Assembly (NCBI GenBank): GCA_905181785.1
Contig: CAJIZC010000003.1
Span: 1-64,000, forward strand
Length of the DNA stretch: 64,000 bases
Direction of reading: 5' to 3'
Source: an uncultured Candidatus Poseidoniales archaeon
GTDB taxonomy: Archaea; Thermoplasmatota; Poseidoniia; Poseidoniales; Poseidoniaceae
Of the stretch, positions 13,535 to 59,400 are shown one piece after another. Position numbers and translations under genes: made by a program. Within the stretch, counting starts at the first letter, position 1, and each line of letters starts with the position of its first letter. Under the pieces are notes generated by a model. That model was given only the letters and a program-made list of their open reading frames with translations. It did no database searches and was not told where the DNA came from.

Positions 13535-16500
13535 TCAATCTTGTGACGAATCTCTGTGTGCCTGAACCTGTTCTTCGTAATACACGACCAACTGGTCCAT
13601 CGTCCAACCTTGGTCGAAGTAACTCTGCACCATTGCTTCATCCCAACCGGGGACTCTTGCTAGGTCAGTCTCTGAAATCACTTTCTTTGGTGGTTCTTTC
13701 TCTGCTCCAGTACCGTCCAAAACGGGGGCTTGGAATCCATCGATGGAAATCGGGTCTGCTGCCAAAGCGTCGAGTTGAGCAGATTCAAGGGTGATCAAGT
13801 CCTTTGCATCCTCGGCTTCTTGCTCGATGTTCCGGAGCACCAAGAAGGCACAAACTGCCAATATTACACCTGCTACCATCAGCATGAGCATCAATTTAGA
13901 ACCGAGGTTCGTTTCATCGCCACTGCTTGGCGTTGCAAGGACAAGCCGTTGTTCTGTTGAACATCCTTGGAGGTTGACAGCCAAATCGGCGAGGGTATCT
14001 GGACATTCATCGTCGGCGTTGATCACGCCGTCGTTGTCGTCGTCAAGCGTCCCATTGTCGACCGGTTCGGTTGGCGTATTGTCGATGTCGATGCCGCTCA
14101 AGTCACAGCCAAGGACATCCGATTCATTGACACCGTCCATATCTGCATCTGCAAGGTTCAGCGCATTTCGAGGTGAAACGGCTTCGATTGTTGGATCCAA
14201 GGCCGTTGATTGCGCCCAAGCAACTTCAAGGCCGTCGGGAATGCAATCCCCATCGGTATCGGCATTTGTTGGATGGCTGCCAAACTTGTATTCATCTTGA
14301 TTTGTGATGCCGTCCATGTCTGCATCGTACAACCCTTCAGCCATGTTTGGGCCAGGCAGGGTGTGCGTGGTTCGATTCAAACCGTTTGGAACTTCCCAAA
14401 TATCAGGCAGTCCATCTTGGTCGGTGTCTGTCACGTTATCCAACCTGTTCCAGTCTTCATACCAAGCAGTAAGGTAGGGTGCTGCAACTTCGGTTGAAGT
14501 CAGCACTAGCCCCATTTCTCGGTTTCTGTTGACTGCGGAATTGCCCCAGTTGATCGATGAAACCAACACGGTCTCTTGGTCAATAATGAGGCCTTTGTTG
14601 TGGAGTTTGGAAACATCATCATCTTCGCTCATGACGATGGCTGCTACATCCAAACCGTCGCTTGAATTCCACACTTCATTGAAGGTGTCAACTACATCTT
14701 GAACGTCCTGGTCGAGGTATGCGCCGTTGATGATCAACCGAACTGCTACGCCGTTTTCTGCAGATTGCCGCAAGGCAGTGAAAATTGGATTGTCGCCCCA
14801 TCCCCAAGACCAGTCCATGTCGAGGTATTGCAAGGACAACAGAAGCTCGTCCTCTGCACTGTCGATCAACTCGACCAGTCCCTCAATGCAGTTGTCCGGG
14901 CACGTCAAGAGCGCCCCGTTGACGGTGGCCGTAATGGATTGCGAACGGGCACCATCGACAGGTGTTGCGGTGGGCATGTTCCATCCGTTTGGCTCGTCGC
15001 TTGCCGAAGCAGGGGAGATGTGTTGGCGCAGCGGTTCTTCATCAAACGACATCTGCTGGAGAACAATCGAAGCCAGTTCGTCGTTTTCAATCAAAACGCC
15101 CCAATCCACGTTGCCGCGAACGCCTGGTGCGGGCATGGAAGAGCCCTTCCAGTTGCCTGATGAAATCCAGACGCTTGTGCCGTCACGGACAGCAACCTTG
15201 CTGTGAATGTAAGCATAAGGTTCCACGCCGCCATCACCGAACCAGTAGGTGGTGACGCCTGCTTTGACCAGTTCACTGGCCATACCGTATTGATTGATCA
15301 TGTCGAAGTCCGCCCAGAAGCCAGGGGACCCGGCATCGAGGACGACCGTAACATCAACGCCTCTGCCTTGTGCGTCAATCAACGCTTGAACCAGTCTTGG
15401 TTCTGAGAGTTGGTAGACATGGACATTGAGGCTCGTGTTCGCCCCTTCAATCCAGTCCAGCACATCGAGGAGGCCGTGGGTTGGGCCAATCAATGGAATG
15501 ACTTCTGATTCACCGGAGAAGGTTTGGTCGTCGCAGAACGTGCTGCCGCCAAGTCGACCCCAGCGGTGATGCCAATCGCTCACCGTATCGGTGTCATCAA
15601 GGGCACCACATCCGTCGCCTCGGTGGTAAATGATCAGGTTGATCCCCGATACGGGTTCAACCAAACTGATGCCACTCCACCCGTTCACCTCGACCGGACC
15701 GTTGCCGTACACGATGGTGTCAGCGAGTGCTCCTGCTGGGTCCGTGATCTGTAAGGCCGCTCCGTCGTTTGGAAGGGTCGGTGCTTCGTTGAATCCAGAA
15801 GCAAACCCGACGATTATACCGTCTTCATAGACGCCAAGGCCGTTCGGATCTGCGGCAAAAATCACCGCACTCATGGCAGGGATTGTAAGGTCGCCGAAGA
15901 CGAATGGGTCGGTGCCACCCGAGGTCGTGACGCTGAACGTCCAACCTTCGAGGTATGCTGTTTTATCACCGATGTTGCTGATTTCAAAGAACTCTGTGTT
16001 CGAAGAAATGCCTGTGGACCCTTCGCTCATAAAGCGTGTGAATTTGACATCATCGAGTTGCGCGAACTGGGTTGCATTTGGCTCTTCAGTTCCTGGTGTT
16101 GGCCACATGGTGTGAATCCAAGACGCCTCAGAAGTGTTGCCGGGCATCATTGTTTGGCAGTCGCTGACAATGCTCCATTGAACAGTGGTGATGGGTACAC
16201 CATCCGGATTGGACAGCGTGAACCCATCGCCAAGACCGCTGAGCAGGCTGTCATCCATGAGGAACACAGCACGCTGTCCGGGCTCTACGATTGTAGCGTT
16301 CCATCCCATGTCAACGGAGTCCCACATTGCGTCGCTTCGAATGAACCTGCGATCTTGGTCGACGGTGTCGATGTGCCATCGGCTGAGGTTGAGGTCCTCT
16401 GTTCCAGTGTTCATGAATTCAATCCAGTCTTCTACAGGGTCAATTGAATCGTCGCTGCAGTACGCCAACACTTCGGTGACGCTCACGTTTTCTGAGCCTG

Positions 16501-33552: not shown

Positions 33553-36500
33553 ATGGAAACGAAAAACCCCGAACCTCGTCAGGCGCCCGCACCCATGCTC
33601 GGTTGGCTCATAGCCCCGATCGCAGTGCTTCTTGCGCTTGCAGCGACACAGATTGTTGGCATGCCCTTCGATCTTGATTTTGAAAACCTGAAACCCATGC
33701 TCGTCGTTTTGGCGGCCGCATCGCTTGGCCTCGCGCCTCGCATGCTTCATGCATCTGGCAAAACCACGCTCTCCACTTCGACCCTCTCACTCGTTTCCCT
33801 TGTGGTCGCTCTGGTCTTGGCAGAAGTTGTCTACATGCTGGATTTCAGCGCAGTGACTTCTTTGCTGTTCTTTATCGTCATGTTTGGAATTCACCTCATG
33901 GTGATGAAGGGCGCTTTCGAATGGGCCAACGTCCTCATGTTCGCTGCCGTTGGTGTCGAACTTGCTTTCGTTGCTGCCGGTCACATTGGAAACACTTTGG
34001 ATGTAAACCTCGCCCTTTCAACAGGCGAAACCATCAATGTGCTCGACGCTCAACGAAGCGCTGTTGCTTACCAATTCTTCAGTTACATCATGCTGTTCAC
34101 CATCCTCGGATTGTTGGTTGCTGTTTTGGCACGTGGCGTTCTTTCGCCTTCGTCTTCCAAAGGCTGGTTCGCTCACATCACTGACGGTAACGGCTCGTGG
34201 AACTCAAGCACCCTGCCCCTGCAAATTGGGCTCGGGGTTTGGGCTCTGGCTCACATCGCAAGTTTGTGGCACTTCAACTACCTCATGAGCGATGACCAAA
34301 CCATGTTCAATGTGTTTGGACCGTTCAGTGCACCCGTGATCAATGCTTATCCTGAATTGGCAGCTTACCACGGCTACTTCGGCTTTTGGAGTGCTTTCTT
34401 CACTGGTATGGTCGCTCTTGTGGTCGCTGGAATGGTTTCAGAGCGCTGGTACACACGCTCGATGTTCATTGGATCCATGTGGGCGCTTTACCTCGTATCT
34501 TCGTGGTACGAAGCAGGTATGTTCCAAAACGAAGCCTTTGAAGGCAGTTGGGGCGCACTGATTTGGCTCGCCTTTACCTTCTTCATCTGCGCTGCTATCT
34601 ACGTCATTGGAACCGGCGAGAAGTGGGGCGGTTGGTCCAACATCAGTGAATACGAACCATCCGGTGCTCGCCGATTCTGGTCCGCTCACTGGGCCAGCAT
34701 CTTGATTGGCATGGCCTTCTTATTCGGATTCTTTATCCGTGTTGGATGGTATGTCATCCCTTCGATGAACTCCTTAGGAACCAACACATGGGACATGACC
34801 GGTGGTTCTGACCCTTGGTACATGAAGCGGGTCGTTGACTACATCCTTGCAAACAACGCACACATGATCGTTGACGCTGACAGGTTTTACCCCGTTGGTG
34901 GCATCAACCCTCGTCCACCGTTGTTTACTTGGTCGATTGCAATCCTCGCTAGCATTCTTGCTCCCTTTGTCGGTTCAGAAGACGCAGTTTGGTGGGCCAT
35001 TCTCACCCTTCCTGCAGTCTATGGCTCCTTGACCATCCTTCCAGTTGCCGCTATCGCTCGTGAGCACGTCAACGAGAAGGCTGCTGTTGTTGCTGCTTGG
35101 CTGATCGCCTTCATGCCGGCTCACGTATCCCACACCACGTTCGCCCTTGCTGACCACGACGCATTCATCATGCTGTTCTTGACAATGGGCTTTATGTTCT
35201 GGCTCAAAGCCATGAAGTACGCTGGAAGCGACAGGTTGTTGCGAAGCACCTCGCCGTCCATCTCAACCTTCCTCAAGTCCTTCTCTGCCGTTTCAAACGA
35301 ACGCCCAGCAGCGCTGTCTTATGCGGTGCTTGCTGGTGTTTCCTTCGGTGTGGTTTCGCTTGGTTGGAAGGGATTCGTCGTTGGACCTGCAATTCTGTTC
35401 CTTGCTTACGCATTGCAGATTGCGCTCAACATGTTCCGCCGCCGTGACTCAACGACATTGAGCGTTTTGTTCATCACAATGCTTGCGGTCAACTTCCTGA
35501 TGGCTTTGCCGTTCTATGGCCACCCACAACTTGATCTCATCCTTGATGGAACAGGGCTTCAACCCTTCTTGTTCATCGCTATCTTTACTCTGGCTATCGC
35601 CTTTGTAACGACTGGATTCCGGGACAAGCCTTGGTTGCTGGTTCTAGGTGTCCTCGGTGCAAGCGGTCTTGTGTTCTTCTCTGCTCTTTACGCACTCAAA
35701 GCGCTTGATTTGTTCAACGCTTGGGACGTTTTGTTCACCGGTGGTGGTTACTTCACCAAGACCAAAATTTTCGGAACAGTTGCTGAAGCGAACGCAAGCG
35801 ACCGTGGGCAACTCTTTGCTCAGTTCGGACCGATCACCTTCCTCCTTTCACTCGTGATGGGCCTGCTTTGCTTGGTATCGGGGCTCAAAGACCGAAAGCA
35901 CACAAACCTCGTGTTTGGTGTGTGGATCCTCGCTGCATCCTACATGGCTTGGTCTGCTGCTCGTTTCATGTTCAACGCGACACCTGCTATTGCGGTTCTC
36001 GGCGCTTGGGGCATCATCTCCCTTTGGAAGTGGGCCAACTGGCCTGGTATGGTCCGTGCTTGGAAGAAGTACGGCATTCGAACCCCAGAAGACCGAATCC
36101 GTGGTGCTCGTAAGGCGCTATGGCGGTCACCGAACTTCTCTGCGATTATGCTCGTCATGATCATGCTGTTTGGCCAACAAGCCACGTACGGTCTGGACGC
36201 TGCTATCCCTCAAACTGTTGCGGCAGAAGAAGAACTCGATGAGACAATCTTCAACTTGATTCCTGACGCTCTGCGCTTTGAAATCGGCGGCTTTTCCCTT
36301 CTCGATGACAGCTCCTACGATGGAAATTGGTATTTGGGATCCATGGGGTCTGGCTTCAACGATAACAGTTGGAACGCAGCCTATGACTGGCTTGCGCAAC
36401 AAGACACCGATGAAGAATATTCAGAACGACCTGCATTTGTCTCTTGGTGGGACTATGGTTTCCAAGCTTTGAATCAAGGCGAACACCCCTCGGTTTCTGA

Positions 36501-39500
36501 CAACTTCCAATCCGGTATTCCTGCAACTGGTAACATGCTCCTGGCTCAATCACAAGAGGACCTTGTTTCGATGTTCATCTGGCAACTTGCCCAAGGGGAC
36601 ATCGCTTACAACAACGCCAACAAAGGAGAATACACCTTCACGAGCGGATTTGAAAGCCGAGTTGCAAACCACCTCACTGCATCACAGATGGAAGATTTCA
36701 AGACCATCAACACCGATCTCGACCTAGACGAAATGGAAGACATGGTCGTCGAAAGCAGCTTCAAGGTGCTCAAGACAAACCGTGACATCGTGATGGCAGA
36801 AGGGTACCATCATGTCGATGGAGCCTTTGATACAAGTCAAAAGGTCTACCGAATCTACGATGAAACCGTTCAAATCGAGTGCACTGAAACGCTCTCAACC
36901 ACCTGTAAAGACGGGGATTGGACCGTTCAATCCGAAGCAGAACGAACCTTCACCAACAACATCCGTTCAGCCCAAGACTCTTCGGAAGAAACAACGCACT
37001 ACATCATCAACGGGTATTGGTACACTGAAGATATGATCAGCGAGTTTGGCTCGGTTTCAACCAGCATTCACCGAGTGAACGCTCGACTTGCTCTGACCGT
37101 TCAACTCATCAGCAATGTGCTCGATGACGGCCAAATCATTGACCTGTATGACGATCTCATCAACATGGAAGGCTATTATTCAGTTCAGGATTACTACGGC
37201 GCCCCTGGTGAACTCATTGATCGCGATCACGAAATCCGATACTTTGCCATCGACAGCCGACTTTACCCACGCGCTGGACGCTACACAGCAGATGCGGGAT
37301 ACAACCGAGGGCAACCAATGGGTATCTTTGGTGCCCCAACCATCCTCAGTGGACAAGACATTGGCACGTACATGGATGAAGTGTACGAAACCACCCGTGG
37401 TGAATTCCAAGACGAAATGACCCGCGAAGAAGTGGATGCCGCAATCACCGAAGATTTCCTCAACCAACAAGCAGGAGCGGAAATTGACCCACTGCAGGTT
37501 CAAGATGTTCGCGTTGACCACAACCCAGCGTTCTTCAAGACCATGCTTGCCAACACCTATGTTGGCTACGGTGCCTCAACACTCGGTGTCAATGCAGGGT
37601 CGTCGAACCCTCAACCTGCTCAGCACTTTGGACAACAAGGAAGTCCAGGCAGTTCATTGAACCAAGCCCTTCCACTTCCTGGCGCTATGTCGAATCACTT
37701 CGTCATCAGCAACTGGTACAGCGAAGACGCTGACATGGGAATTGGAAACACCAACACCTACGTCAAGATCATGAAGTACTACTCCGGTGCAGAAATTTCT
37801 GGACAAGTCGCCATGAGCGATAACGGCCAAGGCCTCTCAGGCGTGCGCTTGCTCGTCGAGCGGGATGCATTCTCCGGCGAAGGTCCAGAGGACCTTGACG
37901 GTGACACATACTGGATTCCAATCGGCTTTGTTGACGCAGACGAGGAAGGCAAGTGGAGCTTCGATGCTCCTGCTGGCCGAATCCGTGTGTCCGCATTCGC
38001 AGGTGTCTATGACCCAACCAACGCTCAGGACAGCATCCGTGCAGGCTCCTTTGCTCAAGGCCTCTCTGACATCCTCACCGATGTCAACACCGACCGTCAA
38101 ATCAACGACATCACCGCCGTTCTCGGCGAAGTCGCAAACATGACATGGTTGGGTGAGACTCAACTCAACGTCACCGCTTCACAAGCAGACAGGATGTCTG
38201 ATGTCACCGAATCGATGGACATCGACGTCCAAAGCAGCGGTGTTTCAGGAATTGTAACTTGGACCGGTGCAGAAGCTTTCAACGGCGACCCACTTGTTGA
38301 CACAACCTTCGTGTTGCGCAGCATTTGGTCAATGGCAGAAAACTACACCCTGACCACCACCAACGGTTCCTTCACCTCCGAAGACAGCCGAATCCTCCAA
38401 GGAACAGGTGAAGCAACATTCGTCGAAAACGGTACCTTCGAAAGCGAAGGTGTGGCCTTTGCACAAGACTTCACTGGAACATTCACTCGTTCCATTGCCG
38501 ACAAGCGAACCTACACCAGCAATGGTACCTGGAACGGCATCGGTGAACTTGAAGCCAGTTGGGTCGCTAACGAAACGGTCATGGATTGCTACGAAGAAAA
38601 TGGAACCATTTCGATGCCGACCAATGAGACGGTCTGTAAGAAAGGATCCGTTGGCGAACTCAACACCTACATGCTTGATGGAGAGGTCACCGCAAATGGT
38701 CGTCTGACCTCACAAGGTGTTTCCACCCTCAGAACAGAACTGGTCAACGCCACGTTCGAAGCAACAGGCTCGTTTGAAGGAACTGGAACCCTTAACGGAA
38801 CGGGTCTTTTCATTGGAAAGGGCCTCTTTGCAGGCTCGATGGTACAACCTGGCTCCTTCTACATCACCGGACTTGTTCCCGGCATGTACAACATGATTGC
38901 ACAGTTGGACAACGGCAAGGAAGTCTTGCTTCCTGCCCCAGTGGATGTTGGAATCACGCCATCCTATGACCTGACCATGACCATGCCAGGTTCATTGTTC
39001 GAAGACACGCTCGAAGATTTCTTCAGCGAAATCTTCGCCAACGAAACCATTGAACTGATCGATGAAGGCCTCGGTGAAGAATACGCTGTGAACATCATAA
39101 CCGATGAAAACGGAACCTTCTCCTATGGACCTCTTGCTCCTGGTGATTACTTCTATCGAGTCGACGTCGACAACGATGGATGGTATGAAGTCAACGAAAG
39201 CCTGTTTGTCCGAGACGATTCTGAGAACTTTTCGATGAGCATGGCTGTGCCAGAAATGCACGACGTGACCATCCAACTGATTTCACCAGTTGACGCAGAA
39301 ACTCAAGCAGCAATGCTGAATGTGGCCAACCGTGTTGTGACGTTCACCAACGATGATCCATTGATGGGCCCAATCAACGCAACCTCAAACGAAGCAGGAG
39401 AACTGTACATAGAACTGCCAATGGGCGCTTACACCCTTTCGGACGATTCTGACGGACAGTATGTCTTGTTCAACCACTTTGAATTGGAGACTGAAGACAT

Positions 39501-42500
39501 GATGTTTGACGGCAACTACGCTGTATCTACATGGGTGAACGGCACCATCCGGACACATACTGATGCATCCAATTACCAACAATGGCTCGAGGGAACTGAC
39601 GAAATCAAGTTGCTTGAAAGCGATGCAGCCTCTGGCTTAACCATCGATTTCACATCTGGAGATCTCTCCTTTAGCACCGTAACTGATGTTGAAGGAAACT
39701 ACAGCATGCGCCTACCAAACGGCCAAGACTTCCACATGACCACCATCAGCTTGTTTTCCACCTACACCGGTGGTCAATTGATTGCTCTTGATGGCACAAA
39801 TGAAATGGATATGGGTCTCATGTACCTCGCACCAGCAACCGCAGTCAATGGGTTTGTGTACCTCTACGAGAACACCTCCCTTTGGGACAACCTTGTCCCT
39901 GGCTGGGCGGCTCAAACCCTCATTGCAACAAACGAAGATGGATTGGAATGGCGAACTGAAATCAGCGAAGGTGGCGAATTTGCGTTCTACCTGCTTGACG
40001 GTGCTTGGGACTTCAACGCCATCAATTCAGAATTGAACATCGAAGGCGTAGAGAACTTCAACGTCCTTGGGGAGAGCGGATCACCGCCTTCACCGATCGA
40101 GTTGTTTGCAAACCCTGCACATCAAAACGTAACCTTGAATTTCTTCATGGACACTGGCGATGATGGTTCCTTCGAAAATGGCACGCTGGTGAGCCCTTCG
40201 TTCTCGGCTGTGCCACTGAACAACCATGGAACCCAGATGAACTTCACAGCAGACAATTACACATCCCCCGGCGTCATTACGATCATGCTGGAACCGGGAA
40301 CTTACTCTGTGGAATTCAACTTTACTGCACCAGATGAAGAGAATGCAAGCGACTACGCTCTTGCTGGCGTTACAGCCCTTCAACCGATTGTTGTTGGTCT
40401 AGAAGCCATCGAAGACGACATGGATATGCCTTTGCGCAACGATTACCTTGTCACGGGCGAGTTGGTCAACGCATCTGCTGGGCCCCTCCAAAAGCAGTTC
40501 CTCCTCTACGAAGCAGACCAAGACCTCTGGTTCAACATGGACAGCGATGAGAACGGAACCTTTGCCGCCTACGTGCCTGCTGGTGACTGGGTTACCATTG
40601 TTGCACCATTCATCGCAAATGAGAACGCTACAGAAATCCTGCGCGCACCTCTCACCATCGGCGAGAACACCTCTTTGAGAACTGGACTTAGTTACACAAC
40701 TGTGGAAACGGTGGATGTCACCTTCCAACTCCAAGAAACAGCCAGCGGCAACAACATGTCGAACGTACGTGTAACTGCTGTCAGCCATGACGGATACGGC
40801 AATGTGACGCTGACCAAGTCCAACGAAACGGGCATGGTCTCCGAGCAAATGATGCCGGGCACATGGAGTCTTTTCCTTAACGAAACTGCCCCACAACGCC
40901 ACTGGACTATGGACACTTCAGATGCTTCCTTTACCACAGAGGACGCAACAAACGGCTCCCTTGATTTGGGTGTCGTTAACGCAGACTTGGAAGTCGAAAT
41001 AGGCGGGAAGATTTACTGGGATCTCAATGAAGACGATGCACCTGGCATCACTGAAGGCATCGAAGGCTTCCTTGTGGAAGTCGTTGGTACCAACACCACC
41101 ATTGACACCAACGTCACAACAGACGACCTTGGTGTTTGGCGGCTCTTCGTCCCAGTTGACGACACCTACCACGTCACTGTGAGCAAAGAAGGATTTGCAA
41201 CGGAAACCTACAACCTGACCAACTCAAGCGCATACCCTGTCGAAAACAACCCTGAATCGCATGACCTGAAGGTCATTGCAGGCAACGTTGCCGTTGCAGG
41301 CAACGTGACAGACATCAACGATGCTGGACGTCTAGATGGAGCAACAATCATGCTTTACCCAGCACTCGACACCGTTCGAGACCCAATCGCCATCAACGCA
41401 ACGCTCACTGATGATGTGTTGACATGGAATGCGGACATCGCTCCGGGCGAATGGATTGTCGTTGTGACTCAAGCAGATGCTGATGAGAACGGCGGCGGCG
41501 TCGCTGTTGGACTCCTGGATGCAACCATTGCTACAGGAGCAACCCTCGATATGGAAATGTCGCTTGGTGGCTGGGTTGACCTGACCACTGAATGGACAGC
41601 ATTCAACTTGAGTTCATACCATGCAGGATCTACTTCTGGTGGTGCTTCGATGATCAACGGCACCGTGGAAGTCGCAGTGACCATTGGTGATGTGGTTTGG
41701 AACATGCCGCTCGCTGAAGATGGTACACTCACCTTGTTGTTGCCTGCTGGCGATGTTGACTTCGACTCGGAGTTCAAGACCGTGCAGCACGATGATCTGC
41801 TGGACATGGACTATGTTGCTGGAGCAAAAACTTCAGTCGGCGAAGGCCGCTCACCAGTCAGCATGACGTTCACTCGTTCAATCAACTCGGACAGTTCACT
41901 CACCATGACAGCAAGCAGCCTCGTCAACGCAACAACCTTTGGCGAAGCAGGAACTGACCTCATGGCCGAACCAACTGAAGATGCCTACAAGACCATTGAA
42001 TTCGACTTGGAAGTTGACTATCAAGGAACGGAGTTGAACGACGTGTTCACCGTTACTGGTTCGATTGGCGTTGCACCAGACAGCAGCCTGTGGTCCGTTG
42101 AGTTCTTCAACGGAACCGACTGGGTTGAATCCTATGACTTGAACCTCGGTGTTGGCGTTAACGCAACAGACACCAGCGTTGATACGACTGACACGATCTC
42201 AGTCCGTGTGAACGTTGCCAACCAATCTGAGGCTTGGAATCTTGAAGACGCTCACTTGGTGAAGATCCGCATGAGCACCGTTACCGGCGCATCAAGCGAA
42301 ATCTCCCTTGGCGTTCAGGTTCCTCAAACCTATGGGTTTGAACTGAGTGATGAACCCACTGAACTTGGAATTGCGGCGGGATCATCTCGTCCATTCACCT
42401 TCATGCTAACCAACACTGGAAACGGTGATGATCTGTTCACCATCACCCTCGCTGACGACATCCCGGAAGGCTTCGAGATCACCCCGATGGAATCGAAAGC

Positions 42501-43104
42501 CAACGTGCCAAAGGACACCAGTCGTTCCCAGGCGTTCACCGTCTTCGCACCAAGCACTTGGGACGGCATCAGCAAGACGGTCAGAGTGACGGTCACCAGC
42601 GAGAACGGCATAGACTCTGAGACCTTTGAAGTGGAATTGAAGGAAGCCATGATCTCCCTCCGGTTCGCAGATGGCGATGTTCAAACGGCTAGCGACACAG
42701 ACGCTGATTCGGAGAACACGCAACTGAGAATCCCAATCGAAAACTTCGGTTACCTCGATGCCACAGGCAGCGTTATTGTTTACCTCACCTACCAAACAAC
42801 CGGTGAGGAATTCGCCGCTCAAACCATCAGTATACCAGCTCAATCGACAGTCAATGCAGTGTTCGATGTCGGTGCCATGGCCGTTGGAAGTCAGCGGTTT
42901 GACTACCGAGTGGAAGTGGTTGGAGAGGACAGTGAATTTGTTGACCAAGGCATTGAAGACGGAGATTTCTCAGTGGAATACTACGTGGTCACAGAAGAAA
43001 GCGATGACACTTGGATTACACTGCTTGTCATCGTCCTCATTCCGCTCATCCTGTTTGGCGGTGTCAAATTGGTTCGCGGCGGCAGTGGTTCCAAGAAGTT
43101 CTGA
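33553..43104 (+). CDS. aglB: Giant AglB/STT3 oligosaccharyltransferase with N-terminal membrane extension and ~1780-residue extracellular module array
   Basis: 3183 residues; the ATG has GAGGG 7 nt upstream. Residues 1-~390 are extra TM helices. The AglB core then begins with D420 in GGSDPWYMKRV, has D534-H-D536, and the catalytic WWDYG at 965-969. The core ends near 1400. About 1780 further residues follow: repeated carboxypeptidase-regulatory/Cna-B-like modules (e.g. DENGTFSYGPLAPGDYFYRV), a NEW3-like domain (LGIAAGSSRPFTFMLTNTGNG) and a CARDB-like domain. A final TM helix (~3150-3172) and a basic tail end it. It carries many NxS/T sequons. AglB moves lipid-linked glycan onto asparagines outside the membrane. 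Usual AglBs are ~600-1100 residues, so this size is exceptional. The role of the extension is unknown. Confidence 0.92.
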   Translation: METKNPEPRQAPAPMLGWLIAPIAVLLALAATQIVGMPFDLDFENLKPMLVVLAAASLGLAPRMLHASGKTTLSTSTLSLVSLVVALVLAEVVYMLDFSAVTSLLFFIVMFGIHLMVMKGAFEWANVLMFAAVGVELAFVAAGHIGNTLDVNLALSTGETINVLDAQRSAVAYQFFSYIMLFTILGLLVAVLARGVLSPSSSKGWFAHITDGNGSWNSSTLPLQIGLGVWALAHIASLWHFNYLMSDDQTMFNVFGPFSAPVINAYPELAAYHGYFGFWSAFFTGMVALVVAGMVSERWYTRSMFIGSMWALYLVSSWYEAGMFQNEAFEGSWGALIWLAFTFFICAAIYVIGTGEKWGGWSNISEYEPSGARRFWSAHWASILIGMAFLFGFFIRVGWYVIPSMNSLGTNTWDMTGGSDPWYMKRVVDYILANNAHMIVDADRFYPVGGINPRPPLFTWSIAILASILAPFVGSEDAVWWAILTLPAVYGSLTILPVAAIAREHVNEKAAVVAAWLIAFMPAHVSHTTFALADHDAFIMLFLTMGFMFWLKAMKYAGSDRLLRSTSPSISTFLKSFSAVSNERPAALSYAVLAGVSFGVVSLGWKGFVVGPAILFLAYALQIALNMFRRRDSTTLSVLFITMLAVNFLMALPFYGHPQLDLILDGTGLQPFLFIAIFTLAIAFVTTGFRDKPWLLVLGVLGASGLVFFSALYALKALDLFNAWDVLFTGGGYFTKTKIFGTVAEANASDRGQLFAQFGPITFLLSLVMGLLCLVSGLKDRKHTNLVFGVWILAASYMAWSAARFMFNATPAIAVLGAWGIISLWKWANWPGMVRAWKKYGIRTPEDRIRGARKALWRSPNFSAIMLVMIMLFGQQATYGLDAAIPQTVAAEEELDETIFNLIPDALRFEIGGFSLLDDSSYDGNWYLGSMGSGFNDNSWNAAYDWLAQQDTDEEYSERPAFVSWWDYGFQALNQGEHPSVSDNFQSGIPATGNMLLAQSQEDLVSMFIWQLAQGDIAYNNANKGEYTFTSGFESRVANHLTASQMEDFKTINTDLDLDEMEDMVVESSFKVLKTNRDIVMAEGYHHVDGAFDTSQKVYRIYDETVQIECTETLSTTCKDGDWTVQSEAERTFTNNIRSAQDSSEETTHYIINGYWYTEDMISEFGSVSTSIHRVNARLALTVQLISNVLDDGQIIDLYDDLINMEGYYSVQDYYGAPGELIDRDHEIRYFAIDSRLYPRAGRYTADAGYNRGQPMGIFGAPTILSGQDIGTYMDEVYETTRGEFQDEMTREEVDAAITEDFLNQQAGAEIDPLQVQDVRVDHNPAFFKTMLANTYVGYGASTLGVNAGSSNPQPAQHFGQQGSPGSSLNQALPLPGAMSNHFVISNWYSEDADMGIGNTNTYVKIMKYYSGAEISGQVAMSDNGQGLSGVRLLVERDAFSGEGPEDLDGDTYWIPIGFVDADEEGKWSFDAPAGRIRVSAFAGVYDPTNAQDSIRAGSFAQGLSDILTDVNTDRQINDITAVLGEVANMTWLGETQLNVTASQADRMSDVTESMDIDVQSSGVSGIVTWTGAEAFNGDPLVDTTFVLRSIWSMAENYTLTTTNGSFTSEDSRILQGTGEATFVENGTFESEGVAFAQDFTGTFTRSIADKRTYTSNGTWNGIGELEASWVANETVMDCYEENGTISMPTNETVCKKGSVGELNTYMLDGEVTANGRLTSQGVSTLRTELVNATFEATGSFEGTGTLNGTGLFIGKGLFAGSMVQPGSFYITGLVPGMYNMIAQLDNGKEVLLPAPVDVGITPSYDLTMTMPGSLFEDTLEDFFSEIFANETIELIDEGLGEEYAVNIITDENGTFSYGPLAPGDYFYRVDVDNDGWYEVNESLFVRDDSENFSMSMAVPEMHDVTIQLISPVDAETQAAMLNVANRVVTFTNDDPLMGPINATSNEAGELYIELPMGAYTLSDDSDGQYVLFNHFELETEDMMFDGNYAVSTWVNGTIRTHTDASNYQQWLEGTDEIKLLESDAASGLTIDFTSGDLSFSTVTDVEGNYSMRLPNGQDFHMTTISLFSTYTGGQLIALDGTNEMDMGLMYLAPATAVNGFVYLYENTSLWDNLVPGWAAQTLIATNEDGLEWRTEISEGGEFAFYLLDGAWDFNAINSELNIEGVENFNVLGESGSPPSPIELFANPAHQNVTLNFFMDTGDDGSFENGTLVSPSFSAVPLNNHGTQMNFTADNYTSPGVITIMLEPGTYSVEFNFTAPDEENASDYALAGVTALQPIVVGLEAIEDDMDMPLRNDYLVTGELVNASAGPLQKQFLLYEADQDLWFNMDSDENGTFAAYVPAGDWVTIVAPFIANENATEILRAPLTIGENTSLRTGLSYTTVETVDVTFQLQETASGNNMSNVRVTAVSHDGYGNVTLTKSNETGMVSEQMMPGTWSLFLNETAPQRHWTMDTSDASFTTEDATNGSLDLGVVNADLEVEIGGKIYWDLNEDDAPGITEGIEGFLVEVVGTNTTIDTNVTTDDLGVWRLFVPVDDTYHVTVSKEGFATETYNLTNSSAYPVENNPESHDLKVIAGNVAVAGNVTDINDAGRLDGATIMLYPALDTVRDPIAINATLTDDVLTWNADIAPGEWIVVVTQADADENGGGVAVGLLDATIATGATLDMEMSLGGWVDLTTEWTAFNLSSYHAGSTSGGASMINGTVEVAVTIGDVVWNMPLAEDGTLTLLLPAGDVDFDSEFKTVQHDDLLDMDYVAGAKTSVGEGRSPVSMTFTRSINSDSSLTMTASSLVNATTFGEAGTDLMAEPTEDAYKTIEFDLEVDYQGTELNDVFTVTGSIGVAPDSSLWSVEFFNGTDWVESYDLNLGVGVNATDTSVDTTDTISVRVNVANQSEAWNLEDAHLVKIRMSTVTGASSEISLGVQVPQTYGFELSDEPTELGIAAGSSRPFTFMLTNTGNGDDLFTITLADDIPEGFEITPMESKANVPKDTSRSQAFTVFAPSTWDGISKTVRVTVTSENGIDSETFEVELKEAMISLRFADGDVQTASDTDADSENTQLRIPIENFGYLDATGSVIVYLTYQTTGEEFAAQTISIPAQSTVNAVFDVGAMAVGSQRFDYRVEVVGEDSEFVDQGIEDGDFSVEYYVVTEESDDTWITLLVIVLIPLILFGGVKLVRGGSGSKKF

Positions 43105-43160
43105 TTGAGTACAACCCATTATACCGCCACCCCTCAAGTGGGGGACAGGCGGAAGCCTTG

Positions 43161-44390
43161 GTGGTAGCTTTGGACGAATTAGATCATGTAGAGTTTCTTC
43201 CGGAACCGGAAGATTCGAGGATCTTATCAGCCATCGACCCAGCAGCGGTTGGTTTCCAAGGGGCTTGGCGGGCAGAAGTGACCGGATGGGCACCGCTGCA
43301 AGCGGCACCCATTCAACGTCGCAGACGCCGGCGCGCAGCGGTAACGAACGGTCTTATCTTTGCGATTCTAAGTGTGGCCCTGTTTGCTGCTTGGAATTCA
43401 GGAATACTTCTGGTGGAACTAAGCCTGCCCGATTCAAAATGGGCCAACGAACAAGTCCAGTTGACAGACGCAGCAGAAGATGGTTTGTCCGGTGTTGGTG
43501 TTCGCGTCTGCATTGTGGATACGGGCATAGATCTCACGCATGACGCTCTCAGCGGGATTGAAGTGACGTTCAAAGATTTGAGGGGCAACTCTGTTGCTCC
43601 AATTGATTACGGAATGATTGCTCATGGAACACTCATGGCTGGTATTCTTGTCGCCAATCAGCATCAGATTGGCGCTGCACCAGGCATCACACTTGGCATC
43701 GCTGCGGCCTTAGGCACCGATGAGAACGGTGAAAACAGCGGTGATGAAGCAACCGTTGCGCAAGCCATTCGTTGGTGTCATGACACTTTTGAAGCGGACA
43801 TCATTTCACTCTCCCTCGGTGGAGAACAAAACCTCAACGCCCAACGTGAGGGAGCCACTGCATCTGCTGCTCGCCGTGCCGTCGATGCGGGTATTTTCGT
43901 TGTAGCCGCAGCAGGGAACGATGGTGGACCTGATGATGATGGTTTAGTTTCAGTCCCTGCTAACATACCCCGTGTAATCACGGTAGGCGCCACGAACATG
44001 AACTCTGAAGTATGGGGCAATTCGTCTGCAGGCTCTCAAGTGTTTGAAAACGGAAAACTACGCAACCATCCCCACCAAAAACCCGAAGTTGTGGCACCTG
44101 GAGTTGGGATCATCAGTACGGGAAACAACAACGCCTGGTTTTCAAGCAGTGGTACATCCGATGCCACGGTGTTCGTAACGGCTGCGCTCGCTTTGCTCCT
44201 CGAGGCTCACCCTCAATACAAACCACAATCTGACAGCAATGGTGCGTGCATCGATGCCGTCAAGATGGCGTTGATGAACACAGCCAGTCCACTCCATGAA
44301 CAAGGCGTTCATGACGACAGGTCTGGTTATGGCGAATTGCAGGCTTTGGATTGGATCGAAGAAGTTGGGTCAACCGCCCCTGATTGTTGA
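43161..44390 (+). CDS. Membrane-anchored subtilisin-family (S8) serine protease
   Basis: About 409 residues if translation starts at GTG 43161 (TTG 43158 is also possible). The longer in-frame ATG at 43011 would read out of frame through the end of aglB. A CATTATACC element near 43116 fits a promoter for the short start. The catalytic triad is complete: D120 (VCIVDTGID), H155 (AHGTLMAGI) and S333 (SSSGTSDATVF), plus the oxyanion asparagine in AAAGNDGG. A basic patch (RRRRRRAAV) followed by one TM helix near 59-84 predicts a type II topology with the protease outside. It starts 56 nt after aglB and could process surface glycoproteins. Substrate is inference. Confidence 0.82.
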   Translation: MVALDELDHVEFLPEPEDSRILSAIDPAAVGFQGAWRAEVTGWAPLQAAPIQRRRRRRAAVTNGLIFAILSVALFAAWNSGILLVELSLPDSKWANEQVQLTDAAEDGLSGVGVRVCIVDTGIDLTHDALSGIEVTFKDLRGNSVAPIDYGMIAHGTLMAGILVANQHQIGAAPGITLGIAAALGTDENGENSGDEATVAQAIRWCHDTFEADIISLSLGGEQNLNAQREGATASAARRAVDAGIFVVAAAGNDGGPDDDGLVSVPANIPRVITVGATNMNSEVWGNSSAGSQVFENGKLRNHPHQKPEVVAPGVGIISTGNNNAWFSSSGTSDATVFVTAALALLLEAHPQYKPQSDSNGACIDAVKMALMNTASPLHEQGVHDDRSGYGELQALDWIEEVGSTAPDC

Positions 44391-44557
44391 ACTCGAACCG
44401 GTGCGGTTTCATGTTCTCAAGTTGCAGTTAATGGCGTGGTCTGTCGTTTCGCGCACTTTTTGACTGATATTTTTAATCTCATTTGATATCATAGGCCAGA
44501 TTTAGACGATACAATAGGTTCTAAGTGATACCATTAGGGTGGCGGCAGGGGCGCAGT

Positions 44558-44565
44558 GTTATATC
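44558..44565 (+). promoter_or_regulatory. Candidate TATA box for the beta-helix surface protein
   Basis: GTTATATC lies 36 nt before the ATG at 44602 in a 211-nt gap. It overlaps a longer in-frame reading frame that starts at 44539, arguing that the true start is downstream. The rest of the gap 44391-44557 is AT-rich around 44460-44520 (TGATATTTTTAATC, then TGATATCA) but shows no gene. Confidence 0.4.
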
Positions 44566-44601
44566 TCTCGGTTCTATGGGATTGAATCGTTGGTGCCAGT
44601 A

Positions 44602-47600
44602 ATGTCTACACACACTTCCCGAAAAAGCCTATCGTTGGTCGCCCTCCTTCTTCTGTCAAGTTTTGCAGGATTAATCGCTCTTCCATCTGTGTCTGCCGTA
44701 AACGAAACCACCTCAGGTACCGTGACTGGGACCGAGACATGGACGGGGACAATGAACCTCGCTGGTGATGTTACGGTCGCTGAAGGCTCGAAACTCATCA
44801 TCAATGCAGGGACGACCGTTAACATTCCATACGGCTCTTTCATCGACGTCGAAGGCGCAATTTGCATCGGTTCGACAGCATGCGGGGCCAGCGCAGGATC
44901 CGCTCAAAACCAAGCCCGTTTTGTTTGGTCGGTCCCGTCAGCATCTGATTACGAAAAAGAAGGGCGTTGCTATGTTAACGGATCAAACACATACACCAAC
45001 ACCGATGCAGGATGCGGTTCGGGAATGATCATCCGCAAAACCATCGACCAGTCCGCAACCGCCACTGGAATCAATTATGCAGAATTCGTGAATGGTTATG
45101 GCTACCCAATCTATGTATCCACCCTTCAACAGGTGCAATACGGCGTTCTTGTTTTCGATGGCTCTTCTACCACAGCCACTGGACTCAGCTTCACCAACAT
45201 CAACACCACCAACGTCCTTGCCATCGATTTCGCAGCACCATCCCTCGTTGATTCCACCTTCACACTCGGCGTCGACGGGAACGGATACGACGCAGCGGCG
45301 CTCCGTGCCTACGGTGCCGGTGCTGGAATCTTGGCAACTGTTAACGTTCAAAATTCAGTGTTCACTGGCGATGCGGAACCAGACTGCAGCCAACAAGGCG
45401 GTGGTCGAACAGTGATTTTCATGGAAGAATCTTACATTAACCTCGATAACATCGAAGTCAATGACAACTCCTTCGGCGTGTTCCTTAAGGGCACCTCTGG
45501 TTGGTTAACGAACTCCACAATTAACGTAAAATGCAACGCTATTGACACCAACTCCCACAAAGAAACAGGGAACATCAAGCACACGTTGAACATTTACGAC
45601 AACATCATCACAACCGCTGAAGGTGCAGGGATTACTGCCTATGACGGAGCAATCGTCGACGCTCGAAACAACGTTATCTCTGGTGCAACCGAGTCATCAG
45701 GGTTTGGTATCCGATCCTCGACCGTTCAAATCCACAACAATGTCATCGGCCCTATCGGTGGCTGGAATGGATTGTGGATTTACGGAACTTCCGACGTTGT
45801 GGCAGAGAACAACACCATTCAAGACACAGCCAAGGAAGCTGTACTGATTGGTGAATACCACTTTGGCGACCAAGGCTGGAACGTTCCAACCCCAACCGCT
45901 GCTCGTTTGTACCTCGCCAACAACCAAATCTCCAACAACACAGGTACATGCAACTCTCAGTTGTATGGCGGCGACTTCGCTTGCCCCGCAATTCACGTGT
46001 TCATGTCCTCAGCAACTGTTTATGACAACACCGTCACAAATAACGCAGGCGACGGATTCCGAATCAAAGGCGGCATTGTCAACGCTCAACGCAATACAAT
46101 GGCTGTTGGAGGCTTCGCAGCTAACATTTCGATGTACGACGATAACTACGGAAACAAGTACGGCAGCATTGCTTACTTCTCCGGCAACAGTTACTCCAAC
46201 GCGTCCCAAGTCTACAACATTACAGAATCCCGTGTGACGGTTCAATCCGAATACATGCCAGATCCGGGTGCAGGCGAACTCTATCCTGTTTCGCTTCAGT
46301 GGCTCGGTGCGGAATGCCCGTACGTTCAAGACGAGTGCTTGCAAGTCCCCTCCACTGCAGCAATGCCTCCAGCCTTCATGCCCATGGCGCTTGAGGTTGT
46401 CTCCAACTCCACTGTGTTCTCGTTCGCAGACCTGCAAAACTTCGATCCAAGCAAGGTCCACGTCCAAAATCAGAATTCTGCTTGGGGCAGTCAAGTGCGA
46501 GAAGGGGAACTCGTTCGCTATCAAGTGAAAGCAAAGAACAGCAACGTCGTTGACGCTACTGTTGTGATCAGCGATGCTACGGGACTTCCGCTCTACACTT
46601 TGCAAACCGATGCCTTTGGTTTCACGCCGGAGATTTCTCTTCCAAGTGACTTCTACCTCGACCGAAACTGGAACCATTTGGTTGGTGAAACCAATGTCGA
46701 AGTGACAATCTCACCAGGGCTCACTGAATTCATGGATGAAAACACCTGTTCGGATGGGTATGACAACGATGGGGATACTTTCGTCGATGGCGCAGATTCG
46801 TCCCAAACTTCTGGAGACACCTCCAACTGTGACATTGGAAACAGAGAATTACCTTTCTACAGCGTGAATGCATTCAAGTTTAGCAAGGGTACAAAGGACT
46901 TTGATTTCGTCTTGAGCGGTGCTATTGATGATGTGATCAACCTCGACAACCTCAAACCAAGCGTTGCTGTTGCTCAAGGTGATGGAGCTTCCTTTGCCAC
47001 CACCGTTACCCTTACCGGTACCGCTTGGGACGGCATTGCTGGACCATACCCGTTGGACATCGTAGCCTATGAGAAGCAATTCGGTCTCGTCAAGCGAGTT
47101 GAAGTTCAGCCACCAGGCTCCACTGATTGGTACTCCGCTGTCGACACTTCTGGTGCCGGCGGCGAAATCTCCCTCTCGAACCATCCTTTCAAGGCGTGGT
47201 CCTTTGACTGGGACCTCTCTGCCCACCCTGAGGGAGAAGGGGATGTGACCTTCCGTGTCCGTTCCTACGACGGACTGGATTACTCTCCAATCGAAGTTCG
47301 TAAGTACAAACTCAACCTCGTCGCTCCTACGATCTTAGTGGAGACACCAAACGATGGTACATCTCATGACAACGCTAAGGTCACCTTCACAGGTAGTGCT
47401 AGCGATCCATATTCCGGTACATGGGGCAGCGACATCCAATCGATATGGTTCGACATCAGTGGACCGAATGATTACACTTCGCACTTTGCCATCGAGGGAT
47501 CAACCGTATGGTCCTATGATTGGAAATTCGAAGAATTGGTCAGTGGTTCCTACACGTTCAACATCTGGGCTGCTGACAGTGACTTCTGCATCGACATGAT

Positions 47601-48960
47601 TGGCACCTGCAACGCAGAAACACGAACCCTCACCATCATGAACGACAACGCTTTGCCGTTCGTTCAACTCAGCGAACCGATCAACAGCGATGTACTCCGT
47701 GCCTCCGAAGAACAACTGATTCAAGGTGTGGCCAGAGATAACGACGGGCAAGTCACACGGGTTGAAATCCAAATCCAAGATTTAGCCAGTGGTTTGATCC
47801 TCAGCAATGGACCCAACCCGATCACAACCTTTGCACCAAGCGGTGCTTGGGCGACCACATGGGACACTTCCAGACTGATTCATGACCAACAATACGAACT
47901 GGTCATCAGGGCCTACGACGGTGAAGATTACTCTGTTGAAGAGCGAATTCGCATCACCATTGACAACCCAACAGACGCCAACAACATTGCACCAATCTTC
48001 AATCAAACCGGCTGGGTTGGAACCATCACAGTGTTCTGTGATGCCAACTCGAACGCCATCGATCGCTGTGGCGAAGGAGCTGTCATCGACTTGACCGCAT
48101 TCTTCTCGGATCCTGATGGGACGGGTGAAGCAGAGAACGACCTCCTGTTTGACATCTTTAACGATGCTACGAATTTGGACGACGATAACTATGCAGATTA
48201 CGTAAGAATCAACGCTCAAGGGGTTGCTACCTACAATCCACCGTGGGTTCAACCAACCTCTGTTATCGCTGAATGGTCCCTCGTTGGACTGATGTTCGAA
48301 GCCCGCGACTCCTACGATTCCGTTGCCTATTCCTACAAGGTGAACGTCGTTGTTGTCTCGGTCGCCTTCAGCGCAGAACGCATCGATTCTGGTGCAGTTA
48401 CCGCAACCGATCCAGCCACTTTCTCTGGAAAAGGCCTTCCGAACAGCATCGTTGCTGCTCGGTTTGACGATGCTAAGGGCATCCGCTTGAACTCAACTCG
48501 TGTTGGTGCAGACGGAACATGGACAATGGACATCGCCAGCAACCAAATGTCAGGTGTTGAGGAAGCGAATGTCATCTTCGAAATGGATGGACAAGTCTAC
48601 TCGGCACCCGGAACAACGGCCAACTCGATGTTCGAACTTCGTTCACAGTCAGCAGATGCAAGCAGCGGAAACCTCCTGCTGATCATTGGAGCGATCGTCG
48701 GAGTCATCGTGCTCCTCGGGGCAGGTGCGTTCTTTTTCCAAGTCGAATACGAAGATTTTGATGAAGATGAATCCATGAATGAAGCAGCAGCTCCCGCTGA
48801 AGACCCATATGCATGGGGTAAAGCAAAGCAAACGCCTGTCGCCATTCCACAAGAAACAGCAACTGCTCCCGCAGCAGCAGCATCAACTCATCCCGGCTGG
48901 CTCTGGGACGAAACCACAAGCAGTTGGGTTCCAGATCCAAACTACGCCCCTGAACAGTGA
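44602..48960 (+). CDS. Giant surface-anchored right-handed beta-helix / Ig-like protein
   Basis: 1452 residues from ATG 44602, which places the signal peptide at ~1-30 (ending SVSA). The N-terminal TGTVTGTETWTG...LTIN-type module is shared with the CARDB protein at 29572. Residues ~60-560 are a parallel beta-helix with NosD/pectate-lyase-like rungs (NNVISGA, VHNNVIGPIG and NNTIQDTAKEAV-type turns). A calcium-like loop with cysteines (DGYDNDGDTFVDGAD) follows near 720. Several Ig-like/bacterial Ig modules run from ~800 to 1330. A TM helix near 1360-1380 leads to an acidic, Ala/Pro-rich tail ending GWLWDETTSSWVPDPNY. Beta-helices of this type bind or process polysaccharides, but no lyase catalytic residues can be assigned. 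Confidence 0.75.
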   Translation: MSTHTSRKSLSLVALLLLSSFAGLIALPSVSAVNETTSGTVTGTETWTGTMNLAGDVTVAEGSKLIINAGTTVNIPYGSFIDVEGAICIGSTACGASAGSAQNQARFVWSVPSASDYEKEGRCYVNGSNTYTNTDAGCGSGMIIRKTIDQSATATGINYAEFVNGYGYPIYVSTLQQVQYGVLVFDGSSTTATGLSFTNINTTNVLAIDFAAPSLVDSTFTLGVDGNGYDAAALRAYGAGAGILATVNVQNSVFTGDAEPDCSQQGGGRTVIFMEESYINLDNIEVNDNSFGVFLKGTSGWLTNSTINVKCNAIDTNSHKETGNIKHTLNIYDNIITTAEGAGITAYDGAIVDARNNVISGATESSGFGIRSSTVQIHNNVIGPIGGWNGLWIYGTSDVVAENNTIQDTAKEAVLIGEYHFGDQGWNVPTPTAARLYLANNQISNNTGTCNSQLYGGDFACPAIHVFMSSATVYDNTVTNNAGDGFRIKGGIVNAQRNTMAVGGFAANISMYDDNYGNKYGSIAYFSGNSYSNASQVYNITESRVTVQSEYMPDPGAGELYPVSLQWLGAECPYVQDECLQVPSTAAMPPAFMPMALEVVSNSTVFSFADLQNFDPSKVHVQNQNSAWGSQVREGELVRYQVKAKNSNVVDATVVISDATGLPLYTLQTDAFGFTPEISLPSDFYLDRNWNHLVGETNVEVTISPGLTEFMDENTCSDGYDNDGDTFVDGADSSQTSGDTSNCDIGNRELPFYSVNAFKFSKGTKDFDFVLSGAIDDVINLDNLKPSVAVAQGDGASFATTVTLTGTAWDGIAGPYPLDIVAYEKQFGLVKRVEVQPPGSTDWYSAVDTSGAGGEISLSNHPFKAWSFDWDLSAHPEGEGDVTFRVRSYDGLDYSPIEVRKYKLNLVAPTILVETPNDGTSHDNAKVTFTGSASDPYSGTWGSDIQSIWFDISGPNDYTSHFAIEGSTVWSYDWKFEELVSGSYTFNIWAADSDFCIDMIGTCNAETRTLTIMNDNALPFVQLSEPINSDVLRASEEQLIQGVARDNDGQVTRVEIQIQDLASGLILSNGPNPITTFAPSGAWATTWDTSRLIHDQQYELVIRAYDGEDYSVEERIRITIDNPTDANNIAPIFNQTGWVGTITVFCDANSNAIDRCGEGAVIDLTAFFSDPDGTGEAENDLLFDIFNDATNLDDDNYADYVRINAQGVATYNPPWVQPTSVIAEWSLVGLMFEARDSYDSVAYSYKVNVVVVSVAFSAERIDSGAVTATDPATFSGKGLPNSIVAARFDDAKGIRLNSTRVGADGTWTMDIASNQMSGVEEANVIFEMDGQVYSAPGTTANSMFELRSQSADASSGNLLLIIGAIVGVIVLLGAGAFFFQVEYEDFDEDESMNEAAAPAEDPYAWGKAKQTPVAIPQETATAPAAAASTHPGWLWDETTSSWVPDPNYAPEQ

Positions 48961-56196: not shown

Positions 56197-56431
56197 GGGG
56201 TTCACTTGGAGCCCAGCGCGTTCGGACTTTGAACAAAGCGATTGCATTCGCTTGATTTGGTGGATTTAGTGAGGTTTTGGTCACCGACCACCAGCGAGGC
56301 GATTCTTGCCGCGGCGAGAAAATCAGACCCTAAGGAAATTAAAATGTCCGAACATCGTTCCATCATCCTCATAAGTGTCCATTTTAGGTTGTGAGTTAGC
56401 GAAGCCTATGGCTTGGCCCCCCGGTGATACA

Positions 56432-59400
56432 ATGCGACGAAGCCTAACCACTCTTCTCACCACGCTTGCAGTCGTTGCAAGCCTTCTGTTTATGTCGCAA
56501 TTCCCTGCGGTCTCTTCAGTCTCTAGCGTCCATCCTAAGGTGACGGAAGGTGAGAAACCACCGTCGACGGACACCGACGGTGACAAAATCCCCGATGTTC
56601 ACGAAAACCTGTTTGAATCTTGGATGAACTGGACCACTGTCGATGGCAGGGACGTTTACATGCCCGGCATGGACAAAGAGGATGCCTCTGACGCCTTTGT
56701 CGACAATGATCGGGATGGTTTGAACGCCACGGAAGAGTACTGTTGGCCTTATCCGGCAAATTGCACAGCTTCTGGCTTCCCTAGAGGATTAACCGGAACC
56801 GTCAATGATGCAGGTGAGCGTACCTACCTCGATCCTCGTGTTGCCGATACCGACGGTGACGGGATGCCCGATGGTTACGAAGCATACATGTGCCACAGAA
56901 CCGGTGGTTTTGACATCTTTACCTTGCGATATGTATGCCCTTCCTTCGACCCGCTTAATGCAAGTGACTTGACCGATGATCCAGATGAAGACGGTTTTGA
57001 CGTCAACAGGGACGGGGTTCTTTCAGTGACGGAACGTTTTACTTCGCCTGAAGAATACAGCCAAGGCACGCCTTTCAACCACACAACAGAACTCGACGGT
57101 TTGTGGTGTTCTGCTTCTTTGCCAGAAGGCTCGATCCTCCTCAATTGGCCCTTTATTCCAAGCGGTGCAAACGCGACATTCGACAACCTTCTTGCTGCAT
57201 GTACGACAAACGCAACCAATGTCGTTGACGAAGATTTGTGGCTTGGAACCGATCCCCTTTTGGACGACTCTGACCGCTATCATTGGGACGGGTTCTCCAT
57301 ACGGCGCCTGTTCCCGTCTTTTGGCGATGGCATTCCTGACGGATGGGAAGTTCACTTCGGTCTTGATCCATTGAACCGCACCAACGCCCTCATCGATCAC
57401 GACAGAGATGGTTGGGATGCCAACCGAGATGGAGGCGTTTCACCTGACGTCAGCCGTACCATGACGGCCATTAAACTGGGTGAAGCCTTGTCGACGCTTG
57501 AAGAATATCTGGTCCATGAGGACGACGGAAACACGGTTATCGCCGGCCTGAAGTCTGTGCCTTATGGCGTGGGTGAAGATCCGTCTAGCCTGATTCAACT
57601 CTCCTTCACAGCAGACCCTAGCGCCATGAGCGTCATGCATTACGACATCAAAGACATCGAAACAGACGCCTCTAATGTCTATGTGACCACGAAATACGGT
57701 TTGACGTTCATGAACATGGAAGAAGAAACCAACGTCGATCAGTGGATGCCTCAAGGTGTTGAACTTCATGACGGCCACCTCCTCGTGTCTCAAGGTGATG
57801 CTTACGGACTTGCGCTCGCTACGAGCGTGGGATTAGCGGTCGTTCCTTTGCAAGCCGATGGATCGTTTGCAGAATTGAGCCAATGGTCTTGGAGCATCGG
57901 TGATGGTTTGAACGCCTTAGCCATGCTCGACATTGAAGGTCCAAACGCCCAACTTTTGGCGCTTGGTGATTCTGGTGCGGGTTCAGTTATCGAAATCAGC
58001 ACCGCTGCAGCAATCGTGCAGAGTTACGAACTCTCAACATCGCTCACTTCGGTGCTCAGCGAATCGAACGCCAGCGTCACATCAATCGCTCACGGAGCTG
58101 TTGGAGGCGGTACCAAGATGCTGCTCGTTGGAACCGATCGTGGCTTGGTGATGGCTGAGACACCAACGGCTATGGATGACTTCACAGCCACATGGCGATT
58201 CCATTACACCACTGAATCAACACCAATCCCAACAAGCATCGACGAATTGCGCTCCTTGTCTTTGGGGATGGTGGCAAACCCAGCAGAGGTTCGCACATTG
58301 GTTCTTGATGGTCCTAACGCAAACAACGCTCAGGTCTTGTGGTTTGGCACGCCCTCTGGACTTCATCGAATGGATTTGCTTGACAACAGCATCACCCACA
58401 GTGGTCTGCTTGAACATCCGGGGCTCGATGGTAAATCCAGCCGCGACCTCAACAACATTCACGCCATCTTCCCAACCGGAGATGAACTGTTGATAGGCTC
58501 TCAAAAAGGCCTATGGGCCATATCTGGTGATTACACTGCAGTTTATGGCTTGCAGGAACAAGAGCCAATTTACGGAGAACTTAGCACCTTGAATTGGGTT
58601 AGCATCGATGGCAACATCACCATTCTTGCTGGTTCGGCCCCGGGCCAATACGCCAACTTGGAACTGATGAATCCAGGTGCAAACGACTCTGATAACGATG
58701 GTATGCCTGACGGATGGGAAGTCGCCAACGGTCTTGACCCGACCGATCCTTGGGACGCTCTGCTCGACATGGATGGAGACGGGCTTGACCTCGACCAACA
58801 AAGCGACGGTTTCTTGGAACGTTTGTGGACCAACCTCGATGAGTTTAGGTACGTGAAAACATCCACAGAGGGGTACAACTCCACCAACCCGAAAGAAGGG
58901 GACACCGATGGTGACGGACTTGGCGATGGTGAAGAGTACTTCGGATTCTTTTTCCAAAACAGCAACCTATGGTGCCACTACACCGTCCAACTCGTGTATG
59001 TTTGCGATGACGCAGCAGGCGCTGCTGCAAACGCTACTTACCTTGGATTATCCTCAAGCGATGTTGGAACCGATCCAACGAACTTCGATTCCGATGGGGA
59101 CGGCATGCCTGATGGCTGGGAAATCACGCACCGACGTTGGGTCGGCTCGAGTTTCTCCGGCGGTAACAATTGGTCGCTTGATCCAAATCGAGCTGACGAT
59201 GCAAATTGGGACGCAGACCGAGATGGTTTGCCAAACCTTTGCGAGTATCAATGGTCCCTGGTCAAAGGCGCTGCAATGGAAGGACTCTTGTTGGAAAGCC
59301 ACGGCGAGTCGGCCGAAGCTGCCGCAGCGTGGTCCACCGCAGATCCAAACAACATCGACTCCGATGGCGATTCCCTCCCCGATGGATGGGAATCAAACGG

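Follow-up and report, generated by a model that had tools for sequence, protein, structure and literature searches.

The window (the whole stretch of 64,000 nucleotides analyzed here, from an uncultured “Candidatus Poseidoniales” archaeon) contains no ambiguous bases and carries, on the plus strand at positions 33553 to 43104, a single open reading frame without internal stops that encodes a 3183-amino-acid AglB. All features of this protein lie on the same strand. The chain begins with an N-terminal extension (residues 1 to 383; 33553 to 34701) of ∼7 predicted hydrophobic helices, which has no Pfam match and is poorly conserved (31% mean identity). It is followed by the STT3/AglB transmembrane catalytic core (residues 384 to 900; 34702 to 36252) and by an extracellular, central-core-like catalytic domain (residues 901 to 1394; 36253 to 37734). 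Motif alignment places the catalytic WWDYG motif of this domain at residues 965 to 969 (36445 to 36459), whereas in most relatives outside Poseidoniia it lies near residue 580 to 600. Beyond approximately residue 1400 the chain runs on for another ∼1780 residues, here termed the arm.

Identification of the giant protein as an AglB oligosaccharyltransferase is firm at the sequence level. PF02516 (STT3) exceeds its cut-off on residues 419 to 678 (E = 3.6e-17), and a phmmer search relates the protein to the Archaeoglobus fulgidus enzyme of known structure (3waj; E = 4.9e-11). TIGR04154 (archaeosortase A-associated oligosaccharyl transferase) aligns with residues 384 to 1002 at E = 9.2e-50, but its 169.8 bits are below the cut-off of 450, and the rest of the model is unaligned. 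The motifs GGSDPW at 417 (first Asp), ADHDA at 533 (DHx), and the TIxE-like GTVAEA at 741 are all present; their D, DHD, and E residues do not vary in the alignment (A1), nor does WWDYG among 16 aligned relatives. The DK/MI (Ser/Thr pocket) region contains a conserved AIDSRLYP at 1232; assigning the Lys/Ile partner would take a structure of the core. Transfer of glycans to NxS/T is the predicted activity. Most Poseidoniales genomes surveyed have one AglB-type match each, so that the giant form is usually the sole oligosaccharyltransferase detected in this order, and an oligosaccharyltransferase transcript was among the highly transcribed Poseidoniales genes in a coastal study (PMC9723583).

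The arm is built of beta-sandwich modules. The first (residues 1396 to 1530; 37738 to 38142), beginning KIMKYYSGAEISG, is homologous phylum-wide, and its position offers a lead toward a possible correspondence with the P1 unit of known AglBs. A sequon-rich array of transthyretin/carboxypeptidase-regulatory-like sandwiches follows (residues 1531 to 2890; 38143 to 42222). It includes a Gly/Thr-rich insert of ∼190 residues found only in Poseidoniales (approximately residues 1572 to 1765; 38266 to 38847), with very long predicted strands and invariant cysteines at 1679 and 1695. The last part before the C-terminal helix is Ig-like (approximately residues 2882 to 3150; 42196 to 43002). CarboxypepD_reg modules were matched in the first half of the arm in 37 of 40 relatives and in the second half in 36; near the C terminus, NEW3 (PF10633) was matched in 10 and CARDB (PF07705) in 11, and NCBIfam choice_anch_T gave sub-threshold profile matches in 33. 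Two AlphaFold2 models based on 40 orthologues, covering residues 1395 to 2300 and 2290 to 3183, had mean pLDDT values of 87.3 and 87.7, respectively, and were nearly all beta with one C-terminal helix. The earlier note, made from the letters alone, had placed the end of the catalytic core near residue 1400 and read the extension as NxS/T-rich transthyretin-like, NEW3-like, and CARDB-like modules leading to a final transmembrane helix. The extension does begin there, profile matches in the relatives confirm the module types, and the helix and the sequon richness are borne out below; the structure prediction that it proposed for the modules gave the confident all-beta models just described.

Fold searches with these models retrieved generic strings of Ig/prealbumin sandwiches with low global TM-scores and no whole-chain counterpart; the best matches were bacterial surface proteins, pilins, alpha-2-macroglobulins, and ciliary Ig repeats. 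A phmmer search of the arm against the PDB gave no match, a single-sequence search found no arm paralogue in the same genome at E = 1e-3, and no S-layer family was among the Pfam matches of the protein and its relatives. PF18079 (AglB long peripheral domain) had no match in this genome and a weak match in 1 of 40 relatives. Homology with NOMO, considered on account of a Pfam match, did not hold up beyond generic transthyretin-like similarity: in the full protein NOMO1-like_9th scored 21.5 bits against a cut-off of 27, and few of the 40 relatives matched any NOMO model.

A transmembrane helix is modelled at residues 3153 to 3175 (43009 to 43077), followed by a short basic tail (residues 3176 to 3183; 43078 to 43101) that the positive-inside rule predicts to be cytoplasmic. 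Of the 122 giant AglBs, all have a net positive tail after the last hydrophobic segment, and in 121 that segment is strongly hydrophobic, the exception (L077) containing ambiguous residues; the helix is absent from all 16 short-form AglBs. The terminal helix and positive tail strongly predict an extracellular arm that is anchored in the membrane twice.

Sequons are concentrated in the arm. Residues 1530 to 2900 of this AglB contain 45 NxS/T, compared with 16.3 ± 3.8 in shuffled sequences and 12 for the reversed motif, and no NPS/T; the shuffles and the reversed-motif control rule out mere composition as the source of this richness. Pooled over 46 Poseidoniales orthologues, the arm (1531 to 2900) has 1785 NxS/T versus 735 reversed motifs (2.4-fold), while the catalytic part is depleted (83 versus 196; ratio, 0.42) and the last 280 residues have 124 versus 101. 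The arms of 70 other Thermoplasmatota are also enriched (1691 versus 882), although their catalytic regions show no depletion (285 versus 114). Enrichment is weak in MGIII arms (95 versus 72; ratio, 1.32) and is weaker in some other relatives, e.g., L097 and L110. Only 3 of the 321 sequon columns are occupied in ≥80% of rows. Individual sites come and go at a maintained density, a pattern suggestive of selection for a certain density of glycans, and N-glycosylation of the arm is well supported by sequence statistics, if unproven. Enrichment is far lower or absent in the other large surface proteins of the window. Two further large proteins, at 13535 to 18466 (1643 amino acids) and 56375 to 62185 (1936 amino acids), show moderate enrichment (z of 2.8 and 3.7, respectively).

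The giant AglB is real and widespread, occurring over most of the phylum. The survey took in 60 close relatives and, across the class Poseidoniia, 146 genomes; AglB was nearly always present. Where the contig allows, frames are ∼3120 to 3335 amino acids in Poseidoniales and 2290 to 2375 in the sister order; shorter frames were mostly taken as truncations at contig edges, part of which were checked. Full-length genes that were read out gave 3124 to 3321 amino acids in all 46 Poseidoniales and 2286 to 2359 in the sister order. Most other Thermoplasmatota lineages have AglBs of 1860 to 2743 amino acids. Named records, chiefly of Methanomassiliicoccales, DHVE2/Aciduliprofundum, and other Thermoplasmata, gave 54 closed frames, of which 52 measured 2051 to 2441 amino acids. 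The other two, from Methanomassiliicoccus records (L134 and L137), have only 1047 and 1272 amino acids, which may reflect a frameshift or genuine shortening. In a Thermoplasmatales-like family (f15; L244 to L248), AglBs of 1860 to 2544 amino acids with a C-terminal helix were missed by the WWD motif filter, suggesting a diverged WWDYG region. The arms are homologous across the phylum (profile-profile probability, 100; E = 4.3e-79 over 1280 columns), and Poseidoniales add the ∼190-residue insert, a longer array, and the ∼380-residue N-terminal extension.

An artifact, by misassembly (which the earlier note had named as a refuting finding) or by fusion of two neighboring genes in this metagenome-assembled genome, is refuted, leaving it next to no probability; nothing was found in its favor. 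Dozens of independently assembled genomes from different families carry the same uninterrupted frame with conserved synteny; in the one split orthologue that was looked into (G061; 1603 plus 1624 amino acids, in a single-contig genome), a run of N breaks the frame. Nor do two proteins appear to be encoded: the junction (residues 1301 to 1500) is among the best-conserved parts (∼57 to 60% mean identity), no shift in codon composition marks it, and no obvious ribosome-binding site accompanies the start codons near residue 1400, all of which argues for one fused protein. The length survey that the note had proposed also qualifies its view that 3183 residues is far outside the normal range. This holds against archaeal AglBs of known structure but not within this phylum, where large AglBs are the norm.

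Several lineages have AglBs of 1.12 to 1.43 thousand amino acids (kaa) that match the arm over its first part and lack the C-terminal helix, and no separate arm gene was found near short AglBs in the 6.5- to 15-kb loci of eight genomes (L236 to L243). These lineages manage without the long arm, which is therefore not needed for catalysis as such. Some genomes outside Poseidoniia carry second, divergent AglB-like paralogues of ∼920 to 980 amino acids (L260 to L263). A catalytic-core tree with 78 rows, rooted on ∼930-amino-acid paralogues, puts the giant forms on one side of one branch (SH-aLRT, 93). This is consistent with the long form having arisen once, from AglBs of 1.1 to 1.4 kaa without the last helix, the direction being provisional. 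It also fits stepwise growth that started at ∼0.9 kaa, passed through 1.1 to 1.4 kaa, went on to >1.85 kaa with a second anchor, and finally reached 3.1 to 3.3 kaa in Poseidoniales. In the midpoint-rooted tree, short forms are nested inside the giants, suggesting loss instead. Rooting on the paralogues, by a long branch, reverses the midpoint topology, so that the direction of change rests on the root.

Gene order around AglB is largely conserved in Poseidoniales: CarS, GARS, AglB, a membrane subtilase, and a large beta-helix/Ig protein. Neither of the last two genes was found in AglB loci of other Thermoplasmatota. The membrane-anchored subtilase (43104 to 44390) lies directly downstream of AglB; the start listed for it, 43011, falls within AglB, and translation probably begins further on. 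The 1473-amino-acid beta-helix/Big_7 protein (44539 to 48960) is syntenic with AglB across Poseidoniales and is not enriched in sequons.

We consider it rather probable that the giant AglB is an oligosaccharyltransferase with a twice-tethered, glycosylated arm, for which a role as a surface scaffold is hypothetical. Its catalytic unit, of the standard kind with a GT-C membrane core and a WWDYG domain, is followed by a predicted extracellular beta-sandwich arm that returns to the membrane via one C-terminal helix and is thereby tethered at both ends. The arm would be N-glycosylated, probably by the same enzyme or by neighboring copies, and might surround the active site as a glycosylated surface scaffold. 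Such a scaffold could be part of the cell coat and/or hold secreted acceptor proteins near the enzyme, each role being hypothetical, and a single chain would then take on the task that falls to beta-sandwich accessory proteins in the eukaryotic enzyme. Of the suggestion that the extension is a built-in scaffold, acceptor, or envelope strut, the fused beta-module arm, terminal helix, and sequons fit the acceptor part, and the scaffold part stays hypothetical. Its further element, coupling of glycosylation to the surface layer, is unlikely as a general role, since isolated Cuniculiplasma strains (Thermoplasmatota) have AglB and no S-layer (PMC5155288). A bolder version, in which AglB doubles as a structural surface glycoprotein and self-glycosylated arms form a glycan canopy partly replacing a wall or S-layer in this phylum, is one that we regard as doubtful.

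The same architecture could instead have arisen by fusion of an accessory subunit, with an arm that chiefly captures and orients acceptors or couples the enzyme to the Sec channel, in the manner of NOMO or the lumenal subunits of the eukaryotic oligosaccharyltransferase, and whose own glycans are incidental. In its favor are the type-I-like layout (extracellular beta-sandwiches, one C-terminal helix, and a basic tail), weak matches to NOMO and EMC7 sandwiches, and a local Foldseek hit in the BOS complex (9c7u_B; E = 5e-5). We nevertheless judge this unlikely: the NOMO matches fall under curated cut-offs and are rarer than those to generic CarboxypepD_reg, the best fold matches are the other proteins named above, with low global TM-scores, and the strong sequon enrichment would be left unexplained. 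Alternatively, the chain might be a polyprotein whose arm is cleaved after synthesis, perhaps by the downstream subtilase, to yield a normal-size enzyme and a membrane-anchored glycoprotein. The subtilase adjoins AglB in nearly all Poseidoniales loci reaching that far, and a cleaved arm would retain its own helix. However, a conserved cleavage site was not identified, conservation at the junction is high, and the subtilase was not found in the AglB loci of other Thermoplasmatota that share the architecture, which makes cleavage quite improbable.

AglB has been studied mainly in species with an enzyme of less than ∼1100 residues. Enzymes 2 to 4 times larger occur in most of a phylum whose members include abundant ocean plankton, methanogens of gut and rumen, and acidophiles, and they widen the view of the archaeal enzyme. 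We provisionally regard this as a known enzyme in a new, large form; no description of a giant AglB was found in the open full-text literature, a scope that subscription papers and bioRxiv preprints mostly fall outside. Cultured relatives exist (Methanomassiliicoccus, Aciduliprofundum, and Thermoplasma), so that glycosylation and function of the arm are testable.

Compared with known systems, the giant AglB shares the GT-C core, Asp motifs, TIxE, and WWDYG with AglB-L of A. fulgidus (3waj, 5gmy, and 7e9s). The latter consists of 499 membrane-region residues and a 369-residue C-terminal globular domain comprising a central core, an insertion, and a beta-rich peripheral unit (PMC3703281). AglBs of known structure and the giant form alike have one or more beta-rich peripheral units after the central core, but the giant chain runs on for >1700 further residues and ends in a second membrane anchor. 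Bacterial surface proteins of the Cna-B, SdrD-B, and pilin types, the best fold matches for residues 1395 to 2300, are likewise beads of prealbumin-like sandwiches; unlike the arm, these cell-wall-anchored adhesins or pilins are not fused to such an enzyme. NOMO, of the eukaryotic BOS complex, has transthyretin-like domains in tandem and a membrane helix at its C terminus. It is a separate protein without a catalytic unit, and its sub-threshold likeness to the giant AglB may reflect a shared fold only. The eukaryotic oligosaccharyltransferase subunits ribophorin I, OST48, and ribophorin II place beta-rich domains beside STT3 on the extracytoplasmic side and are anchored by a C-terminal helix. 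Pfam models of these subunits had no match in the protein or its relatives, and they are separate chains, unlike the arm fused to AglB. The giant AglB represents a natural catalytic subunit with a built-in extracellular domain array, in which the function of the separate eukaryotic beta-sandwich subunits could be explored.
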